From: an uncultured Thiotrichales bacterium
Lineage (GTDB): Bacteria > Pseudomonadota > Gammaproteobacteria > CAIRSR01
Assembly: GCA_903824965.1 (NCBI GenBank)
Contig: CAIJYR010000037.1
Location: 1-33,583 of the forward strand
Length of the DNA stretch: 33,583 nucleotides
Direction of reading: 5' to 3'
Part shown: piece by piece, positions 7,401 to 33,394 of the stretch
Numbering within the stretch: position 1 is the stretch's first letter
Layout of the letters: each line of letters opens with the position of its first letter
Position numbers and translations under genes: made by a program
The notes under the pieces: model-generated
Told to the model about the DNA's origin: nothing
Database searches by the model: none
What the model saw: only the letters and a program-made list of their open reading frames with translations

Positions 7401-7718
7401 CCAAGCAGTGTGTTCGCGACCCTGCCGAGTGGCATCCATACTCCGGAATTGCGCTTAGATTTGCCCAAGGGGGAGAACGAACGCATCATGGATGCCATCG
7501 ACAAAACCAGAGCACGTCTCTCCGGTGCGACCGTCACCCGCATGGACGGGCTGCGGGCCGACTTTGAAGAAGGCTGGGGGTTAGTACGCGCCTCGAATAC
7601 TACGCCCTCTTTGGTGTTTCGCTTTGAAGCGCGTACCCCGCAGGCGCTTCGTCGCATCCAAGATGAGTTCCGGCACATCCTGCTCGAAGCAGGCCCAGGG
7701 TTGAAATTGCCGTTTTAG
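4476..7718 (+). CDS. algC: Membrane-anchored AlgC-type phosphomannomutase/phosphoglucomutase with Ser-to-Gly at the active site
   Basis: The C-terminal ~450 residues (from about 629) align throughout with P. aeruginosa AlgC, which interconverts hexose 1- and 6-phosphates for alginate, LPS and rhamnolipid precursors. Metal motif DGDGDR is intact (D858, D860, D862), as are GEMSGH (E941, H945) and the phosphate-binding RASNTTP. The phosphoserine loop, normally T-G/A-S-H-N-P, reads TAGHNPP: Gly724 (GGT at 6645-6647) replaces the serine that carries the phosphate. The N-terminus adds a membrane segment at about 29-51, an extracytoplasmic domain, a second membrane segment at about 275-295 and a ~250-residue Pro/Ala-rich linker. 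Long AlgC forms with such an N-terminal region are known in pseudomonads; this 1080-residue version is longer. It starts 15 bp after coaBC, so they are probably cotranscribed. Confidence 0.9.
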   Translation: MDIHSLTHILPHAKKGSAHGQRSPLRKWFPLLIPLAIAVCVLAMVAAGFVLLALENNQALRQNQHHSLQMGTTLAGAIERLVQNQTILLESIVQDPALAHLFTAGDEIALTARAHEMMYWFPSALQIRLLRKGTAQTDEKTQPPLGYAALALLREVEAGRKPPIEVHFAANGKRNMVIVRPISDGTGNLVGHLLVQASLDTLTSLLDAVSQGGNLVVLTQATGGRDTMIYHKGDAEGTVSAVPVVRQDIRGTQWRLTYAEHPHAEDNPTTASMSGVLGVVVVIMGLVLFAVQGVFRKALEEDMATLVLVLQNRRGERWDDRFEEAHTPFFRAVFHVWEAIRQSSEGDPAHPLTSHLSLPVPSQVVAPAVSKQEVRVHPIFEQEPQEPRPPAGLIPVSESFDPAPMPVHTPSQAIPVLPLASDTPVPIATPILQPPLSAAMPPPIATPPMPDTAELVATQPVAPETKAPAPVPAPLPAPPPALVAEPTPPKVSTPSLMLLDLEEEPAAIIAPAVETPPPVQAASGSGTPLELSFVDGDLSDISATNKATVVLPTVPVASSSAALTLLDLGGQGDPVPSAPVVDAARNAPTLSSPVKETFVPIHPAKEPAKEPSKEQSAIPTHTPRTPPELFRAYDIRGVVDHALTVEGMLEIGRAIGSEAQDRGQRSLLVARDGRLSSARFASALAQGLCATGCHVIDIGQVPTPLLYFATQFLETQAGVMITAGHNPPQWNGVKVVLQGETLFGEGIQKLRKRIDTGQFRTGEGSLQTMEVASAYRTHTTVDIELQRPLRLVVDGGNGVAGALAVQIYRTLGCQVSDLFCEVDGNFPNHLPDPSQPQHLRALIGAVKAQQADLGMAFDGDGDRLVVVDGSGTIIWPDRLMMLFARDLLPQHPGATIVFDVKSSAHLAEVIKKHGGRPLMWKTGHSLIKAKMKEVDAIFAGEMSGHLFFKERWFGFDDGLYAGARLLELLSRDERSPSSVFATLPSGIHTPELRLDLPKGENERIMDAIDKTRARLSGATVTRMDGLRADFEEGWGLVRASNTTPSLVFRFEARTPQALRRIQDEFRHILLEAGPGLKLPF
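5750..5816 (+). repeat. 16-bp direct repeat inside the algC linker
   Basis: ACCGATCGCCACGCCG occurs at 5750-5765 and 5801-5816, both encoding PIATP. It lies in the Pro/Ala-rich linker and suggests that the linker grows by slippage or local duplication. Confidence 0.7.
6288..6318 (+). repeat. 12-bp tandem repeat at the end of the algC linker
   Basis: AAAGAGCCAGCT, AAAGAGCCATCT and a partial AAAGAGC stand in tandem, encoding AKEPAKEPSKE just before the catalytic domain. This charged repeat is a likely length-variable hinge. Confidence 0.75.
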
Positions 7719-16746: not shown

Positions 16747-17589
16747 CTATTTGGCAGTTGCCGCTGGTCTGTATTTCAACACATAGGTTTGTTTGCCATT
16801 CGGTGTATCCTCGGACATATTCACACGATCACCCGCAATCGAATCGATGTGTTTTGTTTTGTCGAACGTACCATTCTCGTAGTAGTCCCTGTGATCGATG
16901 GTTGCGTAGGTTCCATTGGGATCTTTGCCCATGCCGGTCATGGTAAAGATCCAGGTCAAGTCGATGCTCTGACTCACGCTCTTGAGTTTGGAATCAAAAG
17001 CAAATCGCTGGAAGGGATTGCGTTTGTTCTGCTGGGCGACCTGATCTTTCAGAGCACGTAAGCGATCATTGCTCAACGGTTCTGCATTGTTCCGTGGACT
17101 GATGGTGAACGAAATGACATGTTGCGGCAACGATTTGGGTTTGTTGTCTTTATCCAGTTCTCCCATGGAGTACGGGTGCACTTGCAAATCGGTGATGGTG
17201 ATGTCTCTGGATTCTAATCCCGCAGAGAAACGCAGGAATGTATAATAATCAACCAGGATGTCGATTGTAAATTTCGTGCTATCCTGCTGGTCGGGTGTCA
17301 GTCTACGGATAATGACGTTTTCGTTCTTGGCGATTTCATTAAAGTTTCTTAAGAATTTCTCAACCGAATTCACAGGAGCACCAGTCTGCTTGGCATGCTC
17401 CGCAATGGTTGCTAACGTCACTGAGAGGTTCTTAGCCTCCCTTCTCAGGTAGTCATCGATGTTTCTGGCATCGATGATACTGGCTGCACGATCCACGTAG
17501 AGCGTTGCATAGCCACAGAACAAAGCAGCAAAGACGAAGTACAGCGAAGAAACAACCAGTGTTCGATGTGCTGTAAAAAATTCATTCAT
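16747..17589 (-). CDS. PilO-PilP-like fusion, alignment subcomplex protein
   Basis: A 280-residue bitopic inner-membrane protein: short cytoplasmic N-terminus, one membrane helix at about 11-31, then a coiled stretch and a ferredoxin-like region at about 55-165, the layout of PilO/GspM. The last part, from NPFQRF (191) to about 275, ends in short beta strands spaced like the PilP/MshK/GspC homology region (TGMGKDPNGTYATIDHRDYY, then GDRVNM and YVLKY). I therefore read it as a natural PilO-PilP-type fusion. It starts 12 bp after the PilM-PilN gene. PilP domains contact the secretin, so this one protein could link inner and outer membrane parts. The PilO half is fairly clear; the PilP half is inference from layout. 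Confidence 0.6.
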   Translation of the reverse strand: MNEFFTAHRTLVVSSLYFVFAALFCGYATLYVDRAASIIDARNIDDYLRREAKNLSVTLATIAEHAKQTGAPVNSVEKFLRNFNEIAKNENVIIRRLTPDQQDSTKFTIDILVDYYTFLRFSAGLESRDITITDLQVHPYSMGELDKDNKPKSLPQHVISFTISPRNNAEPLSNDRLRALKDQVAQQNKRNPFQRFAFDSKLKSVSQSIDLTWIFTMTGMGKDPNGTYATIDHRDYYENGTFDKTKHIDSIAGDRVNMSEDTPNGKQTYVLKYRPAATAK

Positions 17590-17601: not shown

Positions 17602-19719
17602 TTAATGATTCTTACTACCGATGGCTTGTTCTATCGATGCGTCGTGATTTTTCATAATTTGCTGGTATTGTCTGACAGGATCTCCACCCGATACCTGAGG
17701 AACTGACAAACGTTTCGTTGGATCATAATGTGCCTCCAATGAAAACCGCACCACAGGCTCAGCATCGGAAGTATCAATGGTAAGGCCACCAAAGGTGATA
17801 TCACTAAAATCTCCCATAAACATATCTGTGTCCTTTTTTAAGTTCTCCACAAAATCCGCAATCACGCCAACATGGCCTTCCGAGCGTGGCAGAGCAGCGC
17901 CTTTCATCACGAGTTTTGCAGAGGCGGATGGCGTTTTTCCTGTGGAAACACCATCCAAATAAACATCGGTCAACCAGAGATTTTCGCTGATGTTCTTACC
18001 GATCGATAGAAATTTTTCCGTCCACAAAACCTTGTTTTCCTGACCGGTGACGACTGCGATGAGAGTGCTTTTTTGAACCTTTTCGCGTAAAGTCTGATTT
18101 GAAGCAAAATCTCCAAGGCAGGGAGCAAGATTTTTCATAAAATTCTGCGTAATACCGGTATACTGGTCATAGCCGAGATACAACAACCCACACAGGAGGA
18201 GCATGAGCGCGAAAAAGCCGTTTCGCTCATCTTCCATGTTCTCGCTAGGTGTCTCCTCGGTTTTCTTACCGGAAAAAAGCTTCGTCACTTGAGAAACGAT
18301 ACTTTCTTGCGGTTTTTGTTGCTTTGCCGTCGCTCTCCGCGATCCCGCAGCGCCACCGCTGCCCCCCCCTTTCCTTCCCGTGCTGCTTACAGCACCGGCT
18401 AGCGCCCGGTTGGCTTTAGAAGGGACTGCCATCATTCCATGCGTTGCATTGTACAAAAACTGTGTTTTGCCAACCGAGACCAAGGGGCCATCGGTACCCG
18501 ACAATAAATTGATAGAAACAAGAGAAGAATGATTTACAAAGGTATCAAATAACTCAAGCGTATTCCTTCCATAGCACTCCTGAATCGCGTGGGGCAATCC
18601 TGCATTCAACCAGGCATCGAAATTAAGAATGTGTTGAAGTTCTCCAAAGAGGGAAATCCTGCGTGGTAATCCACAAGCACGCTGTTGTTGGAAATATTCT
18701 AAGGTTGCGGCAATCTCATCATTGAGTTTCTGTAACAAGGGAATCAATACTGACTCTTGGATACTCAATGCACGCCTATCCAGGTGCGCATTGACTTTAC
18801 GCAAAATCTGCACCAGCAGGTCATTCTGAAGACGCAAACGGTGCTCATCGATCCTGTTTTCTTGTTCCAGTTCAGACAAGGCATCTCGGTTTGCCAGTAC
18901 CAAAGAGACCTCTCCATGACTGGCACCTGTCTCCATCGCCACGGTACTGACCAAGGTGACGATGTTTGGCAGATGGTCTCCGCTCTTCAGGGCCCCCAAT
19001 ACTTGTTTGGGAGTAACCCCTGTTCTCTCCGCAACAGCGCGGAGCAACGTGGCGATCCCGATGGGGATGTGTCGTACCGTGAGCGCACCAATCCCAACAT
19101 GGGCGATCATAACCTCGGTGTACTCAGCACCCACGAGAATGGCACCGTATGGTTCGTCGGGCACTTGTTCCGCCTCTTTGAGGAGGAGGGCTTCGATGGG
19201 AACGATACCCTTGAGTTTCCCGGCAAGCTGATCCAGCACTGCGAGTAGGTCACGCAACAAGCCAGTGTCTACAAAAGAGTAGACACCATTGCTACGGGTT
19301 GCCCCCTGATGGTGCTCGCCCAGGTCTCCATAGCCAAAGGAGACATCTTTGGAACCGAGCAATCCCCTGCCAAATTCACGCACACGTTTTGGATCTGCCG
19401 ATTGTAATTGATTCGCTTTGACGTCCGAGAAAACCAATCGTTCAGAATCCAACAGCAGGTGACAATGGGTGATTTGCGCACGCAGAGAGGGAGAGAGCTC
19501 CGCAAGAACCGTCTGCAGCATTCGCTCCGGGCGTGAATGCTTGCCATCCGTCGGTAGGAGAAATTCGCCAGCGTCCTGTAGCTTCTTTGCGTGGTCATCG
19601 CTCGCACCAACGGTACGCGCATGCCAGCCCGAAGCACCCAGGTGAATGAACAAGCCAACACCTTTCGACCCTGCATCAGCACCACCGTCGACCACAGATT
19701 TCGATTTTGAAAACCGCAT
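17602..19719 (-). CDS. PilM-PilN fusion (GspL-like), inner-membrane assembly protein
   Basis: The 705 residues begin with an actin-like PilM domain (about 20-430; VGLFIHLGASGWHARTV, LSIQESVLIPLLQKLNDEIAATLEYFQQQ, and a GELQHI segment). A Gly/Ser/Lys-rich linker (about 440-500), one membrane helix (about 502-517) and a periplasmic PilN-like domain follow (WTEKFLSIGKNISENLWLTDVYLDG). In most type IVa pili PilM and PilN are separate and interact through the PilN tail; GspL and MshI-type proteins are natural fusions. It probably couples the ATPase to the periplasmic alignment complex. It starts 45 bp after the GspF-like gene. Confidence 0.75.
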   Translation of the reverse strand: MRFSKSKSVVDGGADAGSKGVGLFIHLGASGWHARTVGASDDHAKKLQDAGEFLLPTDGKHSRPERMLQTVLAELSPSLRAQITHCHLLLDSERLVFSDVKANQLQSADPKRVREFGRGLLGSKDVSFGYGDLGEHHQGATRSNGVYSFVDTGLLRDLLAVLDQLAGKLKGIVPIEALLLKEAEQVPDEPYGAILVGAEYTEVMIAHVGIGALTVRHIPIGIATLLRAVAERTGVTPKQVLGALKSGDHLPNIVTLVSTVAMETGASHGEVSLVLANRDALSELEQENRIDEHRLRLQNDLLVQILRKVNAHLDRRALSIQESVLIPLLQKLNDEIAATLEYFQQQRACGLPRRISLFGELQHILNFDAWLNAGLPHAIQECYGRNTLELFDTFVNHSSLVSINLLSGTDGPLVSVGKTQFLYNATHGMMAVPSKANRALAGAVSSTGRKGGGSGGAAGSRRATAKQQKPQESIVSQVTKLFSGKKTEETPSENMEDERNGFFALMLLLCGLLYLGYDQYTGITQNFMKNLAPCLGDFASNQTLREKVQKSTLIAVVTGQENKVLWTEKFLSIGKNISENLWLTDVYLDGVSTGKTPSASAKLVMKGAALPRSEGHVGVIADFVENLKKDTDMFMGDFSDITFGGLTIDTSDAEPVVRFSLEAHYDPTKRLSVPQVSGGDPVRQYQQIMKNHDASIEQAIGSKNH

Positions 19720-19764: not shown

Positions 19765-20808
19765 TTAATGTTGCACCATTTTACCCATATCGAATACCGG
19801 CATAAACACAGCGATCATCATGCCCGCCACCGACATGCCGACAATAAGGGTAAGAATCGGATTAATCAAGGCCGTCCATCGTTCCAGTTCATTGTCCAAC
19901 ATCCGCTCGAAGTAATCCGCAGCAGACAGCAACAAGGAATCCAAGGTACCCGCCTCCTCACCGGCAGCGATCATTTGCAAGACAATGCCTGAGAAAACAT
20001 CGTACTCTCGGAAGGAATCCGCGATCCCCTTGCCGCGTTCAACATCGCTAACGATGGCGTAGATCAATTCTTCGATATACACATTGGCGACTGACCCAGC
20101 AGCCAACTCCAACGACGGTAATAAATCCACTTCGTTTTGCAATTGGACAGAGAAGGTACGCAAAAAACGACTCAAAGACGCCAGACGAACCAATCTACCC
20201 ATCACAGGCAGACGTAACTTATATCGATCCCACAAGTAACGACCTTCTGTCGTGGCAATCCAAGCCAATAGACCCCCCACGAGGATGAAAACCGCTATAA
20301 AGACGATATAGTAATTGGCACGCCACCAATCCCCAAAATCCATCAGCCATTGGGTCATGGTCGGTAATTCTTTTCCGAAAGAGGCAAACATGTTCTTGAA
20401 TCGCGGAAGAATAAAAAAGATCATTCCGTTCAACACCGCGATGAATGCAATAAACATAAAAATGGGATACGCAAGCGCAGATCGTATCTTGCCCTGGGAT
20501 TCATCCATCTTTTTGAGATAGAGGGAGATATGTTCGATGGCGTCTCCGAGACGGCCCGACATCATCCCCGCACGAACCACATTGACGTAGATCTGATCGA
20601 AAACCTTCGGATACTCGGCAAGGGCATCGCCAAAATCGACTCCGTGTTCTACCTCATGCACCACAGACTCCATGGTGTCCCGCAGTACCCCTGCTGGGGT
20701 TTCTTCTGTTAAGTTTCTCAGCACATCCACCAGCGGCAACTGACTCCTCACCATGGAAGACAATTGGCCCGTAAAAATCAACAAGGTGGAAAGCGATACC
20801 GCTGACAT
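19765..20808 (-). CDS. GspF/PilC-type inner-membrane platform protein
   Basis: Polytopic platform on which the assembly ATPase acts to lift pilin subunits. Two T2SF domains are visible: the first with QLPLVDVLRNLTEET and ALAYPIFMFIAFIAVLNGMIFFILPRF, the second with VDLLPSLELAAGSVANVYIEE and MIAAGEEAGTLDSLLLSAADYFE. A final membrane helix NPILTLIVGMSVAGMMIAVFMPVF follows. At 347 residues it is shorter than typical GspF (~400), missing most of the N-terminal cytoplasmic leader. The start overlaps the ATPase stop in TAATG, so the two are translationally coupled. Confidence 0.93.
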   Translation of the reverse strand: MSAVSLSTLLIFTGQLSSMVRSQLPLVDVLRNLTEETPAGVLRDTMESVVHEVEHGVDFGDALAEYPKVFDQIYVNVVRAGMMSGRLGDAIEHISLYLKKMDESQGKIRSALAYPIFMFIAFIAVLNGMIFFILPRFKNMFASFGKELPTMTQWLMDFGDWWRANYYIVFIAVFILVGGLLAWIATTEGRYLWDRYKLRLPVMGRLVRLASLSRFLRTFSVQLQNEVDLLPSLELAAGSVANVYIEELIYAIVSDVERGKGIADSFREYDVFSGIVLQMIAAGEEAGTLDSLLLSAADYFERMLDNELERWTALINPILTLIVGMSVAGMMIAVFMPVFDMGKMVQH

Positions 20809-23693
20809 TAACTTTTCTCCCCCAGCACACGGATCACCTCTTGGAAGGTGGTGACTTCATCTTCTACCAGTTTGAGACCGTGACGAATCAAGGTGGTCAT
20901 CCCAGACTCTAGAACGTGTTGACGTAGCGCCTCAGCACTGAAATTCTCTTGCATGATGATCCTACGCGCTTCACTCGTCATCTCGAATACCTCGAAAACG
21001 GCCTGACGACCAGAGTAGCCATTCTGCAGACAACGTTCACATCCACGACCCTGGGCATATTCCATCTCTGGATCAATTTCAATCCCTAGATCTTCCAGTC
21101 GATGGGCAGTAATCCCTTCTTGTTCGAGTTCATCTAGGATACGGCTTCCCATCACAGCTGTTTTACAGTGCGGACAGATCTTTCTAACCAAACGCTGCGC
21201 AATAGCCAGCGTCAGGGCCGTGGCAACCAGGAATGGCTCAATCTTCATGTCCAACAAGCGAGGCACCACCCCCACCGCATCGTTGGTATGGATGGTCGAG
21301 AATACCACATGGCCTGTCAACGAAGCCTGAATGGCCATGTTGGCCGTCTCTGCGTCACGACACTCACCTACCATGATGACGTTCGGATCTTGACGCAGAA
21401 TGGTGCGCAAACCGCTCGCAAAAGTGAGGCCAATCCGTGCATTGACCTGCATCTGATGCACCCCGGCAAGTCGATACTCGACAGGGTCTTCCACAGTCAA
21501 TACATTCTTTCTTACTTTGTCAATGGCGCTCAGACAAGAATATAGCGTAGTGGTTTTGCCAGAACCCGTAGGGCCACTAATCATGACGAGACCGTATGGT
21601 GCCTTGAGCTTCTCCAACAACAACCGCAAATCGCGTGCCAAGAACCCCACTGCCTCAGGTGTGGGACGTAGCGCATTCTTGTCCAACAAGCGAAAGACGA
21701 TCTTTTCGCCGTAGACGGTCGGAAAAGTCGAAACACGCACATCAATGGGACTCCCTTTGATGATGCGTCCAAAACGACCATCTTGAGGGCGACGCTTCTC
21801 GGCAACATCCATGCCTGACATGATCTTGATGCGAGAGACCACCTCAGGATGCAGATCCCTTGGTAAAGAATGCTCCTCATGCAGAATACCGTCGATACGG
21901 TTTCTGACGACCAGGGCTGCTTCCGTGGGTTCGATATGGATATCTGAGGCACGTTGTACCACAGCACGCTGGAGAAAAGCATTCACGTGGGTGGGTACGT
22001 CCATGTCGGTGGTGGCGACCCGAATCGCCCCTTTCTCATCCTCTTCCAGATCAATGACCGCCACCAAATCGAGACCGTTGGAGGCATCCTCACCACTCTT
22101 TAGGCGCTGGACAGTCTCCAGAAAGATGTCTGGATATGCCAAATACCATTGCAAAGAATGACCCGCCGCAAGATGTTCTATCGCATCACGCGCAACCAAA
22201 TCGTAGGGATCAATGGTGGCAACCCGATACCCCTCTTCGTCTCCCTCCTCAGGAGTCAATGCCACCGTACCCAGCCGCTGTGCCTGTGCCATCGATAGCC
22301 AAGGCGGGGAGGGTCGTTGAATACTGCTCGTCAACTCTTCTAGCGTGCCCAGCACGGGCATACGCAATTGTTCGGAAACCGTCTGAAAAATTTCAGCGCG
22401 GTATTTTAACGCGCCGTCTTCGGCCAAGATTCTGAAAAACGTCCGACCCGTGGTTTGTGCGCGATCTGCCAGCGACAGTGCTTCGTCACGGGTAAGATGA
22501 TTGGCCTTGATCAACTGCAACGCCAGACCACACAGGGACTCCGATACCTCGGGACGATATTCCTTCACAACCTGCGCACGTGCACCAGTACTTCCCTCTA
22601 CTCGATCCACACGGACGGTCGCCGAGCTGCCCACAGTGACCGTAGCAGCCGCACGAACCGTAGCACCCGCCCGAACCGTTGCATCGCCCCCCCCCGTTTC
22701 ACTGGCCGTGGCCGAAGGCGCAGGCACACGGGTGGTTTTATCCTGGGCTGCGGTGCCAGGTTCGACAAAACTCAGTTGCAGACGTGTCGTTCCAACCAAC
22801 AACGTGCTACCGCTGTACACGGGCACCGCATGTATCAAGTCTTCATTGTCTACCTTCGTACCATTGGAACTCCCCAGGTCTTCTATCAGCCAACCCGCCC
22901 CCTCCTTCCAATGGATGCGGCAGTGTCGCCGTGAAGCATGTTCGTCGGCAATGGGAAAATCGGGTACGCTCCCCTTGGCATTCGTGGCACGACCAAACAG
23001 ATACTCTAGTTTGCCTGCAACCCCCGACAATACCTCTCGGTTGCCGCCAGAATAGACCAGGGTTACACGCAGCAGTGCATTCTGTCCAGGAACAACAAGG
23101 GCTTCGCTCGCAGTGCGATGTGTGGGTACCGCCACGGCGGTACGTGCGTCAATTGTCTCATCATCGGCATGCGCTGTCGGTGCCGCCCCCCCTAGAGGGC
23201 GCGGTGCCTGGATGGTTGCATCCAGGCCGAGAGTAGGTAAGGCTCCGGCTCGAAAGACCAATGTCTTATCATGCTCAAGCCCCCCCTCTTGCACGGGACA
23301 TTGCAACGCCTGCGTCCTGTTCATCGCATCTTCGAGCTGTTCCATTGTGCCATCCTGAATGTGTACCGCTACCAGGGTTCTACCCAACCGGAGTGTGTCT
23401 CCCGAATGCAGGGGCATGACATCCCCTACGAGTTGGTCGTTGAGCCGGGTACCGTTCGAGGATCCTAAATCCTGTACCACCCAACCACCACGTGGAACAC
23501 TCCACCAAAATTTACAGTGCTGACGTGAGACGAGATCATCCTCCACGGTCAGATGTGCTACCTGCTCCCCCGGTAGACGACGTCCTACGAGTACCTCTGT
23601 GCGATCGGGGCCGATACGCTCTTCACGTGTTTTGCCCTGCGCATCTCGCAAACGTAGCCGCATTTCTGCGACTTTGTTGTCGCTCTCACCCAC
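20808..23693 (-). CDS. Type IV pilus/type II secretion assembly ATPase with two N-terminal FHA domains
   Basis: Residues ~27-112 and ~208-312 are FHA phosphothreonine-binding domains, each with intact GR, SR-x-H and SSNGT motifs (GRRLPGEQ / SRQHC / GSSNGT; FGRAT / SRRHC / GSSNGT). A linker with repeated D-x-T motifs (DKTLVF, DATIQA, DETIDA, DKTTRV, DATVRA) surrounds FHA2. Residues ~385-450 are a degenerate GspE/MshE N-terminal domain. Residues ~550-961 are a PilB/GspE motor: Walker A GPTGSGKTT (707-715), Asp box VEDPVEY, Walker B VIMVGECRD (usually GEIRD), HTNDA His box and the tetracysteine zinc site CPHC / CERC. The GTG start has AGGTGA upstream, overlapping the kinase stop 8 bp away. The ATPase assignment is very sure; control by phosphorylation is inferred. 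Confidence 0.95.
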   Translation of the reverse strand: MGESDNKVAEMRLRLRDAQGKTREERIGPDRTEVLVGRRLPGEQVAHLTVEDDLVSRQHCKFWWSVPRGGWVVQDLGSSNGTRLNDQLVGDVMPLHSGDTLRLGRTLVAVHIQDGTMEQLEDAMNRTQALQCPVQEGGLEHDKTLVFRAGALPTLGLDATIQAPRPLGGAAPTAHADDETIDARTAVAVPTHRTASEALVVPGQNALLRVTLVYSGGNREVLSGVAGKLEYLFGRATNAKGSVPDFPIADEHASRRHCRIHWKEGAGWLIEDLGSSNGTKVDNEDLIHAVPVYSGSTLLVGTTRLQLSFVEPGTAAQDKTTRVPAPSATASETGGGDATVRAGATVRAAATVTVGSSATVRVDRVEGSTGARAQVVKEYRPEVSESLCGLALQLIKANHLTRDEALSLADRAQTTGRTFFRILAEDGALKYRAEIFQTVSEQLRMPVLGTLEELTSSIQRPSPPWLSMAQAQRLGTVALTPEEGDEEGYRVATIDPYDLVARDAIEHLAAGHSLQWYLAYPDIFLETVQRLKSGEDASNGLDLVAVIDLEEDEKGAIRVATTDMDVPTHVNAFLQRAVVQRASDIHIEPTEAALVVRNRIDGILHEEHSLPRDLHPEVVSRIKIMSGMDVAEKRRPQDGRFGRIIKGSPIDVRVSTFPTVYGEKIVFRLLDKNALRPTPEAVGFLARDLRLLLEKLKAPYGLVMISGPTGSGKTTTLYSCLSAIDKVRKNVLTVEDPVEYRLAGVHQMQVNARIGLTFASGLRTILRQDPNVIMVGECRDAETANMAIQASLTGHVVFSTIHTNDAVGVVPRLLDMKIEPFLVATALTLAIAQRLVRKICPHCKTAVMGSRILDELEQEGITAHRLEDLGIEIDPEMEYAQGRGCERCLQNGYSGRQAVFEVFEMTSEARRIIMQENFSAEALRQHVLESGMTTLIRHGLKLVEDEVTTFQEVIRVLGEKS

Positions 23694-23701
23694 GGGTCAC
23701 C

Positions 23702-26191
23702 TCACACTTTTTTCACCACACGAAAGCCCACCGAAGGCCACTGGCTATTCTCCGGTGCATAGAAACGAGCGGTACAGCGTGCTTGAGAGGGCATACTGTC
23801 ATAGCTGCCCCCCCGTAGGCTGCGATCCCTGACTTTCCTCTCTTTTCCTTCTTTCGCCATCCGAGCGCCTTTGCCTACTTCCTCGATCGGCTCATGGACG
23901 GGATCGACCATACCTTTGGTCAAAGCATCATAATATTTAGGCGACCACACATCCAAGCACCACTCCCACACATTCCCGCACAAATCGTAAATCCCACGCA
24001 GGGTTTTTCCTTCGGGATAATCCGTCACACGCGAGAGCGATCCCGTACCAATGTTGGCCCGCACAGTGAGTGGTTTACGATCATCCTTCCCCCACGGGTA
24101 GACACTGCCTTGGGCTATCTTCTCCCCATTGCGTGCTGCATATTCCCATTGCGCTTCGGTGGGTAATTCCCCCCACACCGATTGCGCGAACGCTTTGGCA
24201 TCACTCCAGCTCACACCCACCACAGGATAGGCATCACGACTTGGATCATCGGGAAATCCAAGGGGTCTGCGGTGTCCGGTGCGTTGTAAGAATTGACGGT
24301 AATTCGCGTTGGTGATTGGGTACACGGTCATTTGAAAGGGCGAAATGCGCACCTCACGACGCGGTTTTTCATGCTCATTGGCCAAGGTGTCGCTTGGGCT
24401 TGCGCCAATCATATAGACGCCTCCTGGAAAGGACACCCATGCGAGTTCGTCCGGTGCAGGTGGAATAGGCCATGGCGGTTGTTCCACACTCTTCAGTAGA
24501 CTCAACACGTCAGCGGCTGAACGGGGCCGATCCTCAGGTTCATACGCCATGAGCTGTAGGATGATTTCGTCCAAAACCCTCGGGAGACCCGCGAGGTATG
24601 CGCTAGGGGGGGTAATTTCCTCCCGTCGAGGCCTCGGGGGAGAGGCTCCCGTCGGATAGCCATCCTCCCCAAACAGCCTAACCGGAGACTTGGCCAAGGA
24701 GGTCGGGGGGGTCACACCGGTAAACATTTCATAGGCCATGATCCCGAAGGCAAACAGATCGGCGGCAGGGCCAACGCACTCAGGCGAGGTGTATTGCTCC
24801 GGTGCCATGTAACGAGGGGTTCCCGCGATCTGATCCTGCTTCGCCCCCAACAAGGCGATACCGAGATCCATGATCACAGGCTGGCCGATATCCCCTTGAC
24901 GCAGCATAATGTTGGCTGGTTTCAGGTCACGATGCACAATATGCTTGTGTGCGATCACCAAGGCTTCGGCAACCGCGCACAACAAACGAAGCCGATCACC
25001 TGCTGTGTCGCGCAACCGCTGTTTGTTTTGATCTATCCAGTGTTTTAGATCACTCCCGCCCTCGATCAACTGCATCACGATGCCAAGACAAGAACCCTGT
25101 GCACCGCTCATGCCTGAAGGACAAGGCCCCTCATAGATCCCGTAGATGGGACAGATATCACGGTGATAAATCTTATGAGAAATGACCACTTCTTGGCGTA
25201 GGCTCTCCAGAAAACTGGGATCAGAAACAAAATCATGCCTGAGCAGTTTGATGGCCACCTGACCCAAACCATGTTTTTGATCGGTCGCACGGTACACCAT
25301 GGCGGATGCACCTTCCCCGATCTTCTCCCAATTGGCATAGCGACTTTTGCCGGGGATCAGAATCTCTAAGGGGCCAAGAATATCCGCAGCCGATTGCGGA
25401 CGATCATCCGGATCATATTCCATCAACTGTAAAATAATTTCGTCCAATCCCTTGGGCAGGTTTTTGCAAAAAGTGCTGGGTGGGGGAATATCCTCTTTCC
25501 GAGGGCGGGGCACTTCTCCGGTATTCAAGATGTCCCACAGGGAAGCGGGTGAAGTCCTTCCGGTAAACATCTCATAGGCCATGATCCCGAACGCAAAAAG
25601 ATCCGCACGATGATCTACCTGTTCGGGGGCCGTATATTGCTCCGGTGCCATGTAGCGAGGCGTTCCAGCGATCTCGGCTTTCTCCGTACCACGCAGCGCA
25701 ATGCCAAGATCCATCAGTACAGGTTGTCGGATGTCACCCTGGCGCAGCATGATGTTCGCCGGTTTCAGATCTCTGTGAACAATATGCTTATGGGCAACCA
25801 CCAGGGCAGCGGCAACCTGATACAACAAAAACAACCTTTCTTCGATGGTTTCACAGATACGGTCTGCGTTCTCTTTCAGCCAGTGTTTGAGATCGGATCC
25901 ACCATCGATGAACTCCATCACGATGCCAACACACTCATCCCCCTCTGATCCCATCTCGGAGGGGCAAGGCCCCTGATAAATCTGGTAAATCGGACAAATA
26001 TCACGATGATAAATGGCGCGGGAGATCATCACCTCTTGGCGTAGGCTGTTCATAAAACTCGGATCAGCCGCATACTCACGTTTGAGCAACTTGATGGCTA
26101 CTTTGCCGAGGCCATGCTCCTGATCGACAGCACAAAACACATTGGCAGAGGCACCCTGACCTATTTTTTTCCAATCAACGTAACGAGCCAA
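23702..26191 (-). CDS. Tandem double Ser/Thr protein kinase with a C-terminal FGE/sulfatase-modifying-like domain
   Basis: Residues are numbered from the ORF-track start. Two Hanks-type kinase domains stand in tandem (about 1-280 and 285-570). Each has a Gly loop (GQGASANV, GEGASAMV), VAIK lysine (K36, K317), HRDLKPAN (D143, D424), GTPRYMAPEQ, and DLG in place of DFG (D163, D444). All catalytic residues are present in both, so both may be active. Residues ~585-831 form an FGE-like domain (LPTEAQWEYAAR, GNVWEWCLD, RGGSY, GFRVV) lacking the first catalytic cysteine of true FGE, so it is probably a binding module. There is no membrane helix. The start is TTG; the codon at 26191 is preferred because GAGAGGG lies 7 nt upstream of it, but only 1 nt before the track start at 26197. 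It lies 8 bp before the FHA-ATPase gene, its probable target. Confidence 0.92.
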   Translation of the reverse strand: MARYVDWKKIGQGASANVFCAVDQEHGLGKVAIKLLKREYAADPSFMNSLRQEVMISRAIYHRDICPIYQIYQGPCPSEMGSEGDECVGIVMEFIDGGSDLKHWLKENADRICETIEERLFLLYQVAAALVVAHKHIVHRDLKPANIMLRQGDIRQPVLMDLGIALRGTEKAEIAGTPRYMAPEQYTAPEQVDHRADLFAFGIMAYEMFTGRTSPASLWDILNTGEVPRPRKEDIPPPSTFCKNLPKGLDEIILQLMEYDPDDRPQSAADILGPLEILIPGKSRYANWEKIGEGASAMVYRATDQKHGLGQVAIKLLRHDFVSDPSFLESLRQEVVISHKIYHRDICPIYGIYEGPCPSGMSGAQGSCLGIVMQLIEGGSDLKHWIDQNKQRLRDTAGDRLRLLCAVAEALVIAHKHIVHRDLKPANIMLRQGDIGQPVIMDLGIALLGAKQDQIAGTPRYMAPEQYTSPECVGPAADLFAFGIMAYEMFTGVTPPTSLAKSPVRLFGEDGYPTGASPPRPRREEITPPSAYLAGLPRVLDEIILQLMAYEPEDRPRSAADVLSLLKSVEQPPWPIPPAPDELAWVSFPGGVYMIGASPSDTLANEHEKPRREVRISPFQMTVYPITNANYRQFLQRTGHRRPLGFPDDPSRDAYPVVGVSWSDAKAFAQSVWGELPTEAQWEYAARNGEKIAQGSVYPWGKDDRKPLTVRANIGTGSLSRVTDYPEGKTLRGIYDLCGNVWEWCLDVWSPKYYDALTKGMVDPVHEPIEEVGKGARMAKEGKERKVRDRSLRGGSYDSMPSQARCTARFYAPENSQWPSVGFRVVKKV

Positions 26192-26197
26192 TGGCAA
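24443..26197 (-). repeat. Intragenic duplication of the kinase domain (about 0.85-0.9 kb units)
   Basis: The two kinase halves share long identical protein blocks, such as HKHIVHRDLKPANIMLRQGD and IAGTPRYMAPEQYT, in the same order. Unit 1 runs about 26197-25358 and unit 2 about 25357-24443. They differ in the C-terminal lobe, where unit 2 has a longer segment after the TSLAKSP region. This indicates an in-gene duplication with moderate divergence rather than two unrelated kinases. Confidence 0.85.
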
Positions 26198-26213: not shown

Positions 26214-28229
26214 TTATGGGTGGACAACTTCCGAAGACAGTGTACGTGTCGCGTCTGCAAAAAGTCTTTGTTGTTCTGAATCAACACCAGCCAGCCCACT
26301 GGCCGCAACCTCTGCGAGGGCAGAACGTGCCTTTTCAGGCATCCCGTGCGCAAGGTAATAATGCACTAAATCCAGCATCAAGCCGCGCCACTCAACGGTA
26401 TGCTCCCGAACTAGGTCGGACGCCTGCTCCCAATCCGAGAGAGCTACCTCAGGATGTCCCGCTCGGTATTCACAATGGCCAAGCCGATAATAGGCAAGCC
26501 CACGCAGATCGCTCTTGAACCAAACAGGATTCGCTACTGCAAGACGCAACAAGCGAATCGCTACGCTTTGGTACAGATTGTTCTGTTGTGCATGATCCAC
26601 AAAATCCATCAAAGACAAAATCGTAGTGGCACTCAATGGATACCGAGAGAGGCGCTGCTCTGCCATACCTAACTCGATCTCATAGTGCTGACCAGACGCC
26701 ATCAAGAGATACACGGCAGTGACAGCGTATCCTGCCTCTCGTTCGTTGAGCGAGGCCGCCTTACGATAATTGGTGGCGGCACTGCTCAGATCACCTGCCT
26801 GCTCCATAAAAGCGCCCGCATCTCCCCAGGCGGTGGGCGAATCAGGGTGAGATAACAACAAATGACTGAAAAACAAACGAGGTGCTGACCACTCTGCCAC
26901 CCGTGTATGCACTTCTGTGATCCACAACACGCCCACTACGACCACAACACCCAGCGGAGGCAACAACGGCAATCCGCCCACATGGCGTTCCGATGGCGGT
27001 TGACAGTCCATGAACATCTCATCTACGGGCAGCGTTTTTTCCCAACGCACCGCCCAATGCAACCAAGCAGCGAGATAAAAGGCAAGTGCCATCACGACCC
27101 CAACGGACGGCAGATAATTCCGGTGTTCAAAGACCAATTCGAGGGGGACGACGGTTGACTCTAAAAGATGTCCCACCAGAAACCACCACAATGCAAACAC
27201 CAAGGGCAGTATGAGACGCTTTCGCCAGGCATAGACCGATGCTACAAGCAACCCAAACCAAGCGACCACAGCCACCAGGGTCGTCCATGGCTGGAGCAGA
27301 CCCCTAGAAACGATCACATCATCATGGTAAAGCCCCATGTACCCATGGTCAGGCACCAACAACAGAGCGACATAAAACCACAGCACCCTCGCTTCTGTCA
27401 TGAGACGCTGTGTCAAATTAAAATCACGGAATTCATACCGAGGAAGCGGAAACACCGATAGGTACACAAGGTAGCCAGTCACCAAGACCACGGGCAGCGC
27501 CACAGCTACAATGGTAAACCGCTTTGTCCAGGGTTCAATGCACGGCGCAACAGACAAACGGAAAAACAACAACTCCACAACCAATTCCAAGTGACCTAAC
27601 AGCGCCCCACTCTCCTTGCTGAGCACCGCCAATCCCCCGGCCAGCAGCGTAGCAGCGATCCACCATACCCCCTGCCGTCTCCCAACGATCAATTGTTCCC
27701 GACCGTGGACAAAAGCCAACAATCCCACCAATGTGAACAAGGCAGAAAGAACAGTCATCCGCTGCACCGTGTACAACACGGTACTGACGTGAAGGGGGTG
27801 CAGAACCCACAAAAGGGCTACCCCACCTGCCAGCCAACGAATCAATCCTTGGGGCTGTGTATCCCGCCACCAGTAAGGCAACAACCGCCCCGCCAGCAGA
27901 TAGACCAGCAAACCACAAACGGCATGCAAAACGATGTTGGTCAGTTTCAAGCCCGGCAGGGGGTGATCCCCACCGAGATAATAATTAAGCCCGAAACTCC
28001 ACATCGAAATCGGCCGACCAAGTGGGCCGCCGCCAGCTCCTGAGGAAACAGCCCCCACCCACTCCGACCACCCCAAATGCTGCCAGTGCAAGGTAGGGTT
28101 CTTGGCAAGAGCACCTACATCGTCAAAGACGAGGAAACCGTCAAGACCAGGGAAATAGACCGCCAGTACCAGCACCAGAAGCGACAGCGCAGCAAAATAA
28201 GGGGTGATCACGAACTGAGCGGCACCCAA
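26214..28229 (-). CDS. Polytopic GT-C/TMTC-like membrane protein with C-terminal TPRs, possible pilin glycosyltransferase
   Basis: The 671 residues have about ten or more membrane helices up to ~440 and a soluble C-terminal region (~470-671) with helical pairs resembling TPRs (SAATNYRKAASLNEREAGYAV; GLAYYRLGHCEYRAGHPEVALS). The N-terminal loop has FLVFDDVGALAKNPTL, with Asp pair D36/D37, then RPISMWSFGLNYYLGG and LKLTNIVLHAVCGLLVYLLAGRLL. This order matches the TMTC/protein O-mannosyltransferase group of GT-C enzymes, where the loop-1 acidic residues are catalytic. It directly follows the pilin gene, so I infer pilin O-glycosylation. The track start is TTG, with no good ribosome site; a GTG at residue 7 is possible. 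It could instead be an O-antigen-type protein or a TPR scaffold. Confidence 0.6.
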   Translation of the reverse strand: MGAAQFVITPYFAALSLLVLVLAVYFPGLDGFLVFDDVGALAKNPTLHWQHLGWSEWVGAVSSGAGGGPLGRPISMWSFGLNYYLGGDHPLPGLKLTNIVLHAVCGLLVYLLAGRLLPYWWRDTQPQGLIRWLAGGVALLWVLHPLHVSTVLYTVQRMTVLSALFTLVGLLAFVHGREQLIVGRRQGVWWIAATLLAGGLAVLSKESGALLGHLELVVELLFFRLSVAPCIEPWTKRFTIVAVALPVVLVTGYLVYLSVFPLPRYEFRDFNLTQRLMTEARVLWFYVALLLVPDHGYMGLYHDDVIVSRGLLQPWTTLVAVVAWFGLLVASVYAWRKRLILPLVFALWWFLVGHLLESTVVPLELVFEHRNYLPSVGVVMALAFYLAAWLHWAVRWEKTLPVDEMFMDCQPPSERHVGGLPLLPPLGVVVVVGVLWITEVHTRVAEWSAPRLFFSHLLLSHPDSPTAWGDAGAFMEQAGDLSSAATNYRKAASLNEREAGYAVTAVYLLMASGQHYEIELGMAEQRLSRYPLSATTILSLMDFVDHAQQNNLYQSVAIRLLRLAVANPVWFKSDLRGLAYYRLGHCEYRAGHPEVALSDWEQASDLVREHTVEWRGLMLDLVHYYLAHGMPEKARSALAEVAASGLAGVDSEQQRLFADATRTLSSEVVHP

Positions 28230-28238
28230 GGGTGCACA

Positions 28239-28808
28239 CTACTGTGCAGGCGTACCGGTCGCAGAGAACGCACCACAGGATCCCCCATTGGGAGGTGTTC
28301 CGCCGTTTAGATAATGCTCACGATTAAGAAAATTTTCCCAGCCGATGGCGGCTGCAGCAGTGGCAGCTATGCTGGAGAACAACACGACACCCTGATTACC
28401 ATTGGCGGCAGAGGGGATGACTGTTATGCACGTGTGAAAAATACCCGCAACACCACCACCAGAGTTAGTTGTGTGCACCACATAGCGTGCGAAACGCGGA
28501 CTCCCCGGAAGGGTCAAGGTCGGAATCATCGGTGACAAATTGGTAGCACCCGCCGCAACGTTGGATGACAACTCCTTACCGTCTAGTCCGTTAACAAGTG
28601 CTGTTGCCGACCCTGATCGTGACCCAAGATAACCAATCAGTGCGCTATTGATTCTCCCAGCCATCTCCACAGCTTCGTCTGTTTCCGCCGTTTTCACGTA
28701 ATTGAGCAGTTTCGGAATGCCTACTGCGGCCAAAATACCGATAATGGCAACCACCACCATCAACTCGACCAACGTAAAACCACGCTCTTTTGCTGCACGC
28801 ATCATCAT
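28239..28808 (-). CDS. Major type IV pilin (PilA-like)
   Basis: Classic type IVa prepilin: a short positive leader ending KERG, cleavage after Gly10, then FTLVELMVVVAIIGILAAVGIP with mature Phe1 and Glu5. The 189-residue protein has a C-terminal Cys pair (C127, C178) that could form the D-region disulfide. The surface is rich in Ser/Thr/Asn/Gly, compatible with O-glycosylation. GAGG lies 8 nt before the first ATG; three ATG codons follow one another. It is followed at 9 bp by the GT-C-like gene. It is the likely main filament subunit of the cluster, although a pseudopilin role cannot be excluded. Confidence 0.9.
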   Translation of the reverse strand: MMMRAAKERGFTLVELMVVVAIIGILAAVGIPKLLNYVKTAETDEAVEMAGRINSALIGYLGSRSGSATALVNGLDGKELSSNVAAGATNLSPMIPTLTLPGSPRFARYVVHTTNSGGGVAGIFHTCITVIPSAANGNQGVVLFSSIAATAAAAIGWENFLNREHYLNGGTPPNGGSCGAFSATGTPAQ

Positions 28809-28867: not shown

Positions 28868-29548
28868 TTAGTTGGCAGCACGGTACCCTGGCATCAGGAC
28901 GCGTGCCCCTGCCGGTTCGGTACCATAGCGGTATTCTAATCGCACATAGTGCTTAACATCAGGGTTGTACCACCAACGCTCCATCCCGACCCAATCACTT
29001 TGAACGCCACGGGTGCGCATGACCAAAACCCAGCATGGAAACGTTCCTGCAGGCACGGAGATTGTTTCCTGACCTTCTACCGTCCAGGACACATTGTGCC
29101 TGATCATTTCCCCAGCACGCAGATACTCCTCCGTAAAGACCACTTGTTTTCCAACCGCAAGGGGAAACAGATCTTGAGGATCCCGAGTACGATACACCAT
29201 TTCTCGAACGGTATCGCCCTGTTTCGATTTTACCTTAAACAAGCCACGACGTACCAAAAAGTCATTTGGCACATCCACACGCTGGAAAGTCACATCCTGA
29301 CCTACGACCGAGGATACCAAAAGCTGATAGCCATCGCTGTAGCGCCAGGTATCCCCCTGACGCCAGGTGGGTACCTCTGGGGAGAGCGCATCCAACCCCT
29401 CAGTCCGGGACTGTTCTGGCATTGGGTTGGTGTGTGCCAACTCGGCACCGTGCTCACTTCCGGTACCCTGCGGTGGAACGCCCTGTTGCGCACATCCCGC
29501 CAACAAGGCAAAAAGTGCCGTTGCCATCAATCTGCCAAAATTTGTCAT
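28868..29548 (-). CDS. Lipoprotein of unknown function in the pilus cluster
   Basis: Signal peptide with lipobox LLAGC: Cys19 would be lipidated, and the following Ala argues for sorting to the outer membrane. A Pro/Gly/His linker is followed by a ~160-residue beta-rich domain (WRQGDTWRYSDGYQLLV, PAGTFPCWVLVMRTRG, ERWWYNPDVKHYVRLEYRYG). This layout is seen in uncharacterised periplasmic lipoproteins; I cannot name the family. GGAG lies 6 nt before the ATG. Position between the secretin and the pilin suggests a pilotin-like or secretin-associated role, which is inference only. Confidence 0.75.
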   Translation of the reverse strand: MTNFGRLMATALFALLAGCAQQGVPPQGTGSEHGAELAHTNPMPEQSRTEGLDALSPEVPTWRQGDTWRYSDGYQLLVSSVVGQDVTFQRVDVPNDFLVRRGLFKVKSKQGDTVREMVYRTRDPQDLFPLAVGKQVVFTEEYLRAGEMIRHNVSWTVEGQETISVPAGTFPCWVLVMRTRGVQSDWVGMERWWYNPDVKHYVRLEYRYGTEPAGARVLMPGYRAAN

Positions 29549-30271: not shown

Positions 30272-32488
30272 TCACTCGTCCTCTACCACACGGCGGGCAC
30301 CCAACGCATGATCTTGGAGGGTGTGACGATCTTCTTCCAAAATAGCCCGTTGGTGGTACATATAGTCCCGTGCACCGACATCATAAGCCGTCAATGTCTT
30401 GCTATCGACCAGTTTCGGCGTGATGAAGAAGATGGTTTCCTTATGATTTAAGTTGGCCGTCTTGCTGCGAAACAAGTTCCCCAGTATGGGAATGTCCATC
30501 AGACCCACCACACCGCTGTCCCCTTCCAGATTGCTGTCTTGGAACAGACCACCGAGCACAAAAGTGTCCCCATCCGGGACGATGACATTGCTCTGTACTT
30601 CCTTTTCGTCTGTGGTGAGTGCAGCACTGAAGGAGGAGTTCTTGGCATCGATATTCAAACGAACCAGTTGCCGGAAATCGGCCACCTTCAAGGGATCAAT
30701 GACGCTAGGGGTGATCTGCATTTCCAGACCCGCATCCACCGTCTTGATGTCGGAACGTGTGCCATCGCCTGTCGTGACCGGAATGCTCACCTTCGTCTTA
30801 CTGGTGATTTTGGCCAGCACATTGTTCAAAGTCACCACATGTGGAGACGCAAGAACCTGCGCTTTGTCCTGGCTCTGCAACGCATTCAGTTGCATGGCCA
30901 AGGCACCCTTCGATCCTTGCAACACATAAGAGAGCAATCCCGCACCCGCTCCGCCAGAAAGGGGCAACAACGTGATGGGGTCTGTGAGGGGTGTCCGGGT
31001 GGAAGCACTCGTTACCGTTAGAGGGCTAGTAGACGTAACACCCCCAGTCGTCACCGATACTCCACCAGTAGACGCTACAGTCGTTGAGTAACCAGGCCCT
31101 GAATTCGTTGTTCCAGAGCCAGCTGCTGAGGGCGTAGTAGATCCGTTAAGAAAGACTTGCGTTGTTCCCGTACTCCTCGCCACGCCATAGTAGGAGGCAA
31201 CATTTTGGGCTGCACTGGCGGCCAAAGAGCCTGCAGCTGATCCGGTGCTAATCCCCACCGCGCCGTTGGCACCACCCGCATTGGTGGCGGCACCCCACTG
31301 CACCCCGAGGTTACGACTCGTGCCTGATTCGGCTTGGACGATCATCACCTCCAGGTCGATCGACGGCATCTGTTTGTCGAGATCCCCGATGATCTTTTTC
31401 ACATTGTTGATGACATCGGGTGGAGCCTCAACGATCACAGAGTTGGTACGCAGATCGATGGCAAATTTAGGTTTAGGCATCTCGCAAGGTTTCGACTCTG
31501 CACCACTGTTAGGCGAGGACGTGTAGGAACCAAAACCAGAGGCCGTTTGGGAGGATGTACTGCCTCCCGTGCTAGCATCATTTCCCTGGCTGGGACTCTT
31601 TCTGAAATGAGCAGCGGGATCCTGCTCAGAACCTGAGGAAGCAGGCGCACCTTGCACAGCGTTGCTATTTTCCTCGAACAAAGAGCGCAGGGTCGCATCC
31701 ATGCCAGGGACGCTTATTTTCTCGCCCTGGAAGGCAAGGGTGGTAGGGCCAACACTCGCAAAATGCACGGGGATAATCTGCATCGTCACAGACCGTCTCG
31801 CGATGATCTGTTCCTCAAGGCACTTCGCACGATTTTCGCTGTCACGCAAACGGATTTCACCCGCTTTTGAATCAAGATCACTGGTACGCAGCTTGGCCCG
31901 TGCGTCATCTCCCGACTGTCGATCGGCAGCACCCTTCTCTATCTTGCTGATAAAATCCTTCGCGCGGATCACAGACTTGGTAGACCCTTTCAGCAAAATG
32001 GAACGGGTCTCGGAATCGGCTTTTGCCTCTAGATCGGCATTCACCACGCCCAAACGCTTTAACGCCGCCAGCATGAGTTCAGGGGTCGTGTACTGTAGCG
32101 GAACCAAATCTTGGGTGGCACTGCTTGCTGCGACAATGGTGATCTGGTTCGTGGTCTTATCGTAGGTATAAGACAGGTAAAGCTCCGCCATAATCTTGTT
32201 AAAGGCAGAGTGCAGATCAAGGTGTGCCTTGTCATCAAAATTGAAATTCACCGTACCCACGACATCCGGGTTGACGATCACAACCATGTCTTTGTTGTTG
32301 ATCGACAATATCTTTCTCAACACATCGGCCACAGGTTCCTGGTGCGAATCTCGAATGAAAAGATCATTGCGCCAGTCAATGACAGCGCCCGCATCCTCCG
32401 CTCTGGCCCCCCACTGCAACCCGGCCAGGAACAGAAAAGCCACCACCACCGCCCACCCTCTACGACGACCTGCTTGTGTATCGCTCAT
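30272..32488 (-). CDS. Outer-membrane secretin (PilQ/MshL/GspD superfamily)
   Basis: Forms the outer-membrane channel through which the filament or substrate passes. A signal peptide ends near residue 30 (GARAED). An N0-like domain (~35-125) and an N1 KH-like domain (~126-186) are followed by a charged helical stretch. A Ser/Gly/Gln-rich linker (~275-335), another short N domain (~340-372) and the secretin core (~375-705) come next. The conserved core end is VPDGDTFVLGGLFQD, then GDSGVVGLMDIPILGNLFRSK and ETIFFITPKLV. Within the core, about residues 400-500 are Ser/Thr/Gly/Ala-rich low complexity, larger than usual. AGAGGTGGGGG precedes the ATG. Confidence 0.93.
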   Translation of the reverse strand: MSDTQAGRRRGWAVVVAFLFLAGLQWGARAEDAGAVIDWRNDLFIRDSHQEPVADVLRKILSINNKDMVVIVNPDVVGTVNFNFDDKAHLDLHSAFNKIMAELYLSYTYDKTTNQITIVAASSATQDLVPLQYTTPELMLAALKRLGVVNADLEAKADSETRSILLKGSTKSVIRAKDFISKIEKGAADRQSGDDARAKLRTSDLDSKAGEIRLRDSENRAKCLEEQIIARRSVTMQIIPVHFASVGPTTLAFQGEKISVPGMDATLRSLFEENSNAVQGAPASSGSEQDPAAHFRKSPSQGNDASTGGSTSSQTASGFGSYTSSPNSGAESKPCEMPKPKFAIDLRTNSVIVEAPPDVINNVKKIIGDLDKQMPSIDLEVMIVQAESGTSRNLGVQWGAATNAGGANGAVGISTGSAAGSLAASAAQNVASYYGVARSTGTTQVFLNGSTTPSAAGSGTTNSGPGYSTTVASTGGVSVTTGGVTSTSPLTVTSASTRTPLTDPITLLPLSGGAGAGLLSYVLQGSKGALAMQLNALQSQDKAQVLASPHVVTLNNVLAKITSKTKVSIPVTTGDGTRSDIKTVDAGLEMQITPSVIDPLKVADFRQLVRLNIDAKNSSFSAALTTDEKEVQSNVIVPDGDTFVLGGLFQDSNLEGDSGVVGLMDIPILGNLFRSKTANLNHKETIFFITPKLVDSKTLTAYDVGARDYMYHQRAILEEDRHTLQDHALGARRVVEDE

Positions 32489-32623: not shown

Positions 32624-33319
32624 CTACCGAAACTCAACCCACGATGGGTACCGTAGGGTTGCCCACCGGCTCGCTGCTGTTTCCGTCTGCTTGGCAGCAC
32701 TCGCTTCCAAGCCGGAGACAGTATTCTTGACCTCTTCTACAGACTTCACAGGGCCGCTCAGCAGGAGGGAGTTAGTTGCCGTGTCTTCCGATACAAACAC
32801 ATCACTGCCAAACACGCGCACACACACAACGCCCTGCGAAGAAACACATGCCTCACGATGCGGATAGAGATTTCCGATTGCGTCACGTACCGCATGTGCA
32901 CTCAGATACCGCAACGCTATCCATGTCTGGTGGGCGGATGCATCAGCATCCATCCTGAAGGCAATTTCTTTGGCCATCCGCACAGAGGTCGCATCCCCCC
33001 TCACCACGAGGACATTGCTGGCTTCGTCTGAGGAGACAGAGACCTTGATGCTGAGCTTCTTCAGAGTCTCTCCGACGTTGCCGACTTGCGCATACCGCAG
33101 CGAAATCAGCGACTCTTGCGCCATCCCACCCCAATGTCTGGCATGTCTGTGATGTTTGTCGGCCTTGTGAGGCACACCTTTAGGCATGGGAGCCGCGTGC
33201 TGGTCAGTCGCGGAGGACTGTACAGGATCCGCAGCCTGCACTTCCCCCAGCAAGCCCACTATCACCACACCAGCTAGCACCTGATAGACACGACGACCTG
33301 CTCTCTTGCTCATTTCCAT
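32624..33319 (-). CDS. Small exported protein with two secretin-N-like repeats
   Basis: The ORF track starts at TTG 33343; ATG 33319 or, better, ATG 33313 (MSKRAGRRVYQVLAGVV) gives a clean signal peptide ending near VQAADP, with GGGG about 9 nt upstream of the latter. After a His-rich stretch (HKADKHHRHARHWGG) come two repeats of the NolW/secretin-N pattern. One is SLRYAQVGNVGETLKKL with ASNVLVVRGDATSVRMAKEI; the other is LRYLSAHAVRDAIGNLYP with TNSLLLSGPVKSVEEVKNTV. No secretin core follows in frame. It is likely a periplasmic ring or partner for the secretin encoded 135 bp downstream. Function is inferred from the fold pattern and position. Confidence 0.7.
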   Translation of the reverse strand: MEMSKRAGRRVYQVLAGVVIVGLLGEVQAADPVQSSATDQHAAPMPKGVPHKADKHHRHARHWGGMAQESLISLRYAQVGNVGETLKKLSIKVSVSSDEASNVLVVRGDATSVRMAKEIAFRMDADASAHQTWIALRYLSAHAVRDAIGNLYPHREACVSSQGVVCVRVFGSDVFVSEDTATNSLLLSGPVKSVEEVKNTVSGLEASAAKQTETAASRWATLRYPSWVEFR

Positions 33320-33394
33320 CACCCCGATGCGTTTTTTAGCCAACCAAGATCGCCGAAATCACCAACGTGAACTCGGACATCCCAACACACAGCC

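Follow-up and report, generated by a model that had tools for sequence, protein, structure and literature searches.

A putative phosphothreonine module linked to a type IV-filament motor ATPase in an uncultured Thiotrichales bacterium and related proteobacterial loci

We analyzed a 33,583-nucleotide stretch of DNA from an uncultured Thiotrichales bacterium (contig CAIJYR010000037.1; hereafter the window), in which a gene for a GspE/PilB-type motor ATPase with two FHA domains lies directly downstream of a gene for a Ser/Thr kinase whose C-terminal domain resembles the formylglycine-generating enzyme (FGE). The two proteins have intact catalytic and binding residues, their genes are linked in most related loci, their divergence is correlated, and a threonine motif is enriched in the linkers of the motor. 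We consider it probable that these genes belong to a phosphothreonine module (a kinase, a target with several sites, an FHA reader and, in some clusters, a phosphatase) dedicated to the motor of a type IV-filament machine, namely a pilus or a type II secretion-like system.

The motor ATPase (961 aa; 20808..23693, minus strand, GTG start) has the order FHA-linker-FHA-linker-GspE/PilB-type motor in Pfam and AlphaFold2. FHA domains read phosphothreonine. Pfam recognized both FHA stretches (E 1.7e-30), and both copies have the FHA fold and keep the GR, SRxH and SxNGT pocket residues, namely G37 R38, S56 R57 H59 and N80 in domain 1 (residues 19-113; 23355..23639, minus strand) and G234 R235, S254 R255 H257 and N277 in domain 2 (residues 216-310; 22764..23048, minus strand); the pocket motif (GR, SxxH, NG) was defined according to PMC1262709. 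These data bear out the initial annotation, which had described two complete FHA domains in a PilB/GspE-type ATPase. The AlphaFold2 pLDDT was near or above 90 for both FHA domains and mostly below 50 across both linkers, and the solved folds close to the FHA domains include FhaA, OdhI and GarA. The linker positions in the model have too little confidence to reveal docking. Disordered linker 1 (23049..23354, minus strand) contains the motif threonines Thr144 (HDKTLVFRA), Thr160 and Thr180, and disordered linker 2 (22524..22763, minus strand) contains Thr320 and Thr339 together with weaker ATV repeats at Thr345, 351 and 359.

The remainder of the protein consists of an MshEN-related N1 region (22014..22511, minus strand) and a T2SSE motor core (20829..21998, minus strand; PF00437, E 1.3e-121); this core, Walker A at residue 707 and the tetracysteine/conserved Cys columns identify a GspE/PilB-type assembly ATPase. 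Direct control by cyclic di-GMP (c-di-GMP) via MshEN was rejected: the domain is recognizable in some orthologs, yet its ligand motif is degenerate. The ATPase did not reach the cut-offs of the curated models for GspE of the type II secretion system (TIGR02533; 494.6 of 630.25 bits) and PilB of the type IVa pilus (TIGR02538; 473 of 675.65 bits), and we therefore call the cluster a type IV-filament machine without naming a subtype. The score against the TadA-family model TIGR03819 (class III CpaF/TadA with FHA) was also below the cut-off (53.9 of 373.15 bits).

The kinase-FGE protein (831 aa; 23702..26197, minus strand, TTG start) contains two Pkinase stretches (Pfam, E 5.6e-65) and has no convincing membrane segment by hydropathy. 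Both kinase copies have the Hanks-type residues VAIK, HRDLKPAN and DLG (for DFG), in agreement with the tandem Ser/Thr kinase gene of the initial annotation. Domain 1 comprises residues 7-268 (25394..26179, minus strand) and domain 2 about residues 288-560 (24518..25336, minus strand), with 65% identity between them at the protein level and 69% at the DNA level. The double kinase is peculiar to the window lineage; as almost every other member has a single intact kinase domain, the tandem kinase was dropped as a defining feature. In L056, one kinase domain is combined with a long region that has no Pfam kinase match.

The FGE/SUMF1-like domain (residues 586-829; 23711..24442, minus strand; E 2.3e-40) had been overlooked in the initial annotation, as had the threonine motifs of the linkers. 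The catalytic CxxxxC pair of the formylglycine-generating enzyme, at the position that we take it to occupy, is absent; most members have a single Cys in the RGG tail, and three have no Cys there. Activity as a formylglycine enzyme was ruled out because this pair is missing; the domain may serve as a ligand sensor. A kinase with a C-terminal FGE-like domain is known from the chlamydial kinase-NirV/DUF323 fusions, for which no link to a pilus motor is described (PMC1262709). Open reading frame (ORF) coordinates and sequence confirmed the gene spacing given earlier: exactly 8 bp (23694-23701) separate the kinase-FGE and ATPase genes, and base 20808 is common to the ATPase stop and the start of the GspF/PilC-type platform protein (19765..20808, minus strand) within TAATG.

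For comparison, loci were gathered by ATPase similarity alone and supplemented with genomes of the same family. The kinase-FGE gene adjoins the orthologous motor gene in 19 of the 21 clade loci; the initial annotation had regarded a direct link as unlikely if FHA-ATPases generally occurred without a kinase neighbour, and the opposite was found. At L046, the contig end cuts the locus and part of the kinase-FGE gene is still present. At L180 (genome G002), kinase-FGE is not linked to the motor but lies elsewhere in the genome, beside a match to the TPR membrane protein gene, indicating a split of the cluster and not a loss of the kinase. At L048, the motor has neither its N-terminal region nor an adjacent kinase, and a PP2C phosphatase gene remains; the ORFs upstream of this shortened motor (L048:1-3555) resemble insertion-sequence transposases, judged from their translations. 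No kinase, FGE or PP2C gene and one FHA neighbour were found among 61 control GspE/PilB loci (789 kb), although distant kinases in the controls could escape hidden Markov models that were built from the clade. Chance adjacency of kinase and motor was ruled out by these counts (19/21 versus 0/61).

The reverse search gave the same association. The kinase-FGE profile matched 8 of 399 genomes of the phylum at E<1e-70, the genome of the window included. Apart from it, seven genomes contain eight copies, two of them in G166, and every one of these copies adjoins this motor type, which rules out a generic kinase. The motor profile added G169, with a divergent kinase-FGE gene adjacent, and G217, with no kinase adjacent. 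Upstream of the motor, the more distantly related G057 has fragments of kinase and FGE and then a TIR domain; the gene upstream of this motor (L157:2-1078) encodes FGE and then a C-terminal TIR domain (PF13676, E 1.2e-25). The locus and genome samples overlap, with L139/L039, L140/L043 and L141/L067 giving the same matches. Several sources are metagenome-assembled genomes (MAGs), so that their taxonomic assignments, and gene neighbourhoods where a contig ends, should be regarded as provisional; Azospirillum rugosum IMMIB AFH-6, with a single-kinase ortholog, is a named strain that has the cluster. Outside the clade, a Planctomycetota MAG has a GspE gene with a gene for a double-FHA protein in its vicinity (L072:1-2559).

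Pairwise distances of kinase-FGE and motor were correlated with r=0.911, and those of platform and motor with r=0.841 (n=19; Mantel p about 0.0005 each). The former correlation indicates co-inheritance and is by itself no proof of interaction. The motor tree placed the clade and two distant relatives on one side of a 100/100 branch; its deepest forks are unsure because of the long branches flagged at L056, L157 and L159. Among named sources, a Gammaproteobacteria MAG has the motor closest to that of the window, followed by alphaproteobacterial and Magnetococcales lineages.

The N-terminal regions of the orthologous motors outside FHA contain 90 matches to [DE]-x-T-[IVLM], compared with 10.6 expected from shuffling, and the favoured form is D-A-T-V-V. 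The serine version has 9 matches, despite a Thr:Ser ratio of 409:317, and the N-terminal extensions of the control motors have no comparable excess of the threonine form (16 observed, 11.3 expected). The motif was picked after the sequences had been viewed, which makes the enrichment p-values descriptive, and the bias for Thr over Ser and the control motors are therefore the stronger evidence. Tandem arrays occur in some relatives, the clearest multisite case being a motor linker with DATVVRPRD-like units (L143:3128-4552). The motif is also kept in motors without FHA (L042, L047, L050-L053 and L055). An acidic residue at -2 and a hydrophobic residue at +2/+3, as in HDKTLVFRA around Thr144, are shared with LEKpTSIVAS of DgcB and with the tails of GarA/OdhI (PMC6733907). 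The Thr-specific, repeated linker motifs are plausible kinase substrate and FHA-ligand sites.

Several clusters with an FHA-less motor encode an FHA domain in another protein: an EAL-FHA protein in L050, L051, L052 and L055, a histidine kinase-FHA protein in L053, and in L047 an FHA protein whose cyclase match was below threshold. The EAL-FHA proteins have the EAL and DDFGTG motifs and a variant FHA pocket, in which SR and NG are retained but the His is replaced. PP2C genes are present in six clusters (L044, L047, where the gene is cut by the locus end, L048, L050, L052 and L053). The initial annotation had reported no phosphatase nearby, which holds for the window, where no PP2C gene was found, but not for these homologous clusters. 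The genome of the window has five PP2C matches, of which the one on contig C103 lies beside another kinase and an FHA gene; this trio on C103 of genome G000 is a possible phosphatase source for the window motor.

The scheme that we infer from these features covers phosphorylation, FHA binding, the direction in which binding would act and the input signal. The cytosolic kinase-FGE protein, probably triggered via its FGE-like domain as a ligand sensor, would phosphorylate threonines in the acidic-x-T-hydrophobic repeats of the disordered linkers that precede the motor. The resulting phosphothreonines would serve as ligands of the FHA domains, either in cis or across subunits and hexamers, and binding would alter motor assembly, motor activity or docking to the inner-membrane platform; we assume, by analogy, that the effect would be activation. 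In lineages with FHA-less motors, the phosphorylated motor could instead be bound by an FHA protein encoded in its own cluster, and a PP2C phosphatase, encoded in the cluster or elsewhere in the genome, would reset the switch. The proposal in the initial annotation that filament assembly is switched by threonine phosphorylation thus gains support from the linkage, the reverse search and the Thr-specific linker motifs. More tentatively, and with somewhat less confidence than we place in the module itself, these clusters may represent a distinct class of type IV-filament machine in several proteobacterial lineages, in which kinase-FGE writes, tandem DATV-type repeats store, an FHA domain in cis or on another cluster protein reads and an in-cluster PP2C erases, replacing or acting atop MshEN/c-di-GMP control; the readers would include EAL-FHA proteins that bring a c-di-GMP phosphodiesterase to the motor.

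Some observations weigh against a module centered on the motor. The strict motif is absent from L041, L049, L056 and L145, which is a genuine weakness; some clade motors are FHA-less, and no FHA was found in the retrieved stretches of L049, L054 and L067; and in G217, a 75% complete assembly, a motor with FHA has no adjacent kinase. A kinase whose substrate is a different component of the machine would also be compatible with the shared linkage and co-divergence. It might target the platform, the PilM-like protein or the TPR membrane protein, with the motor FHA recruiting the motor to the phosphorylated partner as in PpkA/Fha and with the linker threonines being secondary. The frequent binding of FHA domains in trans, the retention of the kinase gene with the TPR gene in the split G002 cluster and the type VI secretion system (T6SS) precedent cited in PMC11217815 agree with such a partner; however, the motor linkers themselves, those of FHA-less motors included, show strong enrichment of the threonine motif, and we regard this alternative as unlikely, albeit the most credible of those considered.

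The long disordered linkers with up to ten sites, together with two FHA domains, are multivalent, and the N-terminal part of Rv1747 forms condensates, which PknF promotes and the phosphatase PstP reverses (PMC9312465). Instead of acting as an allosteric on/off switch, the FHA domains and acidic-Thr repeats might cause motors to cluster at the pole or envelope to a degree set by phosphorylation. Several members, however, have one FHA domain and two or three sites, hence low valency, and we consider this reading improbable. Least probable, with very little chance of being correct in our estimation, is that the FHA domains are phospho-independent structural contacts while the kinase controls gene expression or other targets: EssC of the T7SSb variant of the type VII secretion system (T7SS) does have two FHA domains without the phosphothreonine residues (PMC4925161; PMC11217815), but the present motors retain these residues, and the kinase shows both specific linkage to the motor and correlated divergence with it.

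Control of PilB/GspE motors is known mainly via c-di-GMP and PilZ-type partners. MshE and other MshEN motors belong to the same superfamily and have a regulatory N-terminal domain, and several clade members have Pfam MshEN matches; the window motor differs in its degenerate MshEN ligand motif and in the FHA domains and Thr linkers added in front. The nearest functional parallel is PknF-Rv1747. In Mycobacterium tuberculosis, as in the window, a kinase gene (pknF) lies directly upstream of a gene for a double-FHA ATPase with a disordered linker (Rv1747; PMC3908365); the two form a two-gene operon, and Thr phosphorylation modulates function (PMC3908365, PMC9312465). This layout, a kinase gene beside a gene for an FHA-linker-FHA ATPase, was found in the window and is conserved in the clade. 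Rv1747, however, is an ABC exporter in a different phylum, and its system has no FGE domain, whereas the window motor is of the GspE/PilB type; because the ATPase families differ, the window system is not a member of the PknF-Rv1747 group and would only work like it.

FHA domains on a pilus motor are less unusual than was initially supposed: class III CpaF of the Tad system has FHA and a disordered region before the motor ATPase, but is of the TadA/CpaF family, has one FHA domain and, in the accessible part of the report, is mentioned with no dedicated kinase (PMC12019362). In T7SSd, T7SSe and EssC of T7SSb, a secretion ATPase has an N-terminal FHA domain, and the cluster includes a kinase gene and, for some variants, a PPM phosphatase gene (PMC11217815); these ATPases are of the FtsK type, and the FHA of T7SSb is without phosphothreonine residues. 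The PpkA/PppA/Fha proteins of the T6SS likewise control a secretion machine through a kinase and an FHA protein, but there the FHA is on a separate protein. GarA/OdhI and Bdellovibrio DgcB resemble our proposal in that the FHA domain recognizes a phosphorylated Thr motif within its own protein (PMC6733907), and differ in being a metabolic inhibitor or a diguanylate cyclase with a single site and no motor.

The idea is therefore not new in kind, since PknF-Rv1747, class III Tad motors and the T7SS variants precede it. A phosphothreonine module on a PilB/GspE-family motor was not found in the literature searched, and a phrase search found no paper on PilB/PilT phosphorylation, with most subscription papers outside its scope. 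If correct, our proposal would add direct Ser/Thr phosphorylation of a PilB/GspE motor by a dedicated kinase with a recognizable motif, would extend kinase/FHA/phosphatase modules, known from T6SS, T7SS variants and ABC exporters, to another secretion-motor family, and would assign a function to kinase-FGE fusions.

The minus-strand order of the cluster is secretin, small ORF, lipoprotein-like protein, pilin, TPR protein, kinase-FGE, FHA-ATPase, platform, PilM-like protein and 280-aa protein, followed by a transglycosylase and three proteins similar across clusters, two of which have weak pilin N-methylation matches. Upstream of kinase-FGE are the genes for the polytopic TPR membrane protein (26214..28229), which accompanies the kinase gene in the split G002 cluster, the pilin-like protein (28239..28808), the lipoprotein-like protein (28868..29548), which is kept in clusters, and the secretin (30272..32488), all on the minus strand. 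Downstream of the platform gene, on the same strand, are the genes for a 705-aa protein with a PilM-like cytoplasmic fold, a long helix and a C-terminal domain (PilM-PilN/GspL-like; 17602..19719) and for the 280-aa single-pass protein (16747..17589), also kept in clusters. No T6SS genes were found among the window ORFs scanned, and the TagH-type FHA model TIGR03354 stayed below its cut-off (53.1 of 120.25 bits). The same genome has four further full-length GspE/PilB-type genes and four shorter family matches, so the window cluster represents an additional machine. A separate ORF with Secretin_N domains (32624-33343) lies directly upstream of the full secretin gene. At 4476-7718, the window encodes a 1080-aa phosphoglucomutase/phosphomannomutase whose N-terminal stretch weakly matches a dCache sensor domain.

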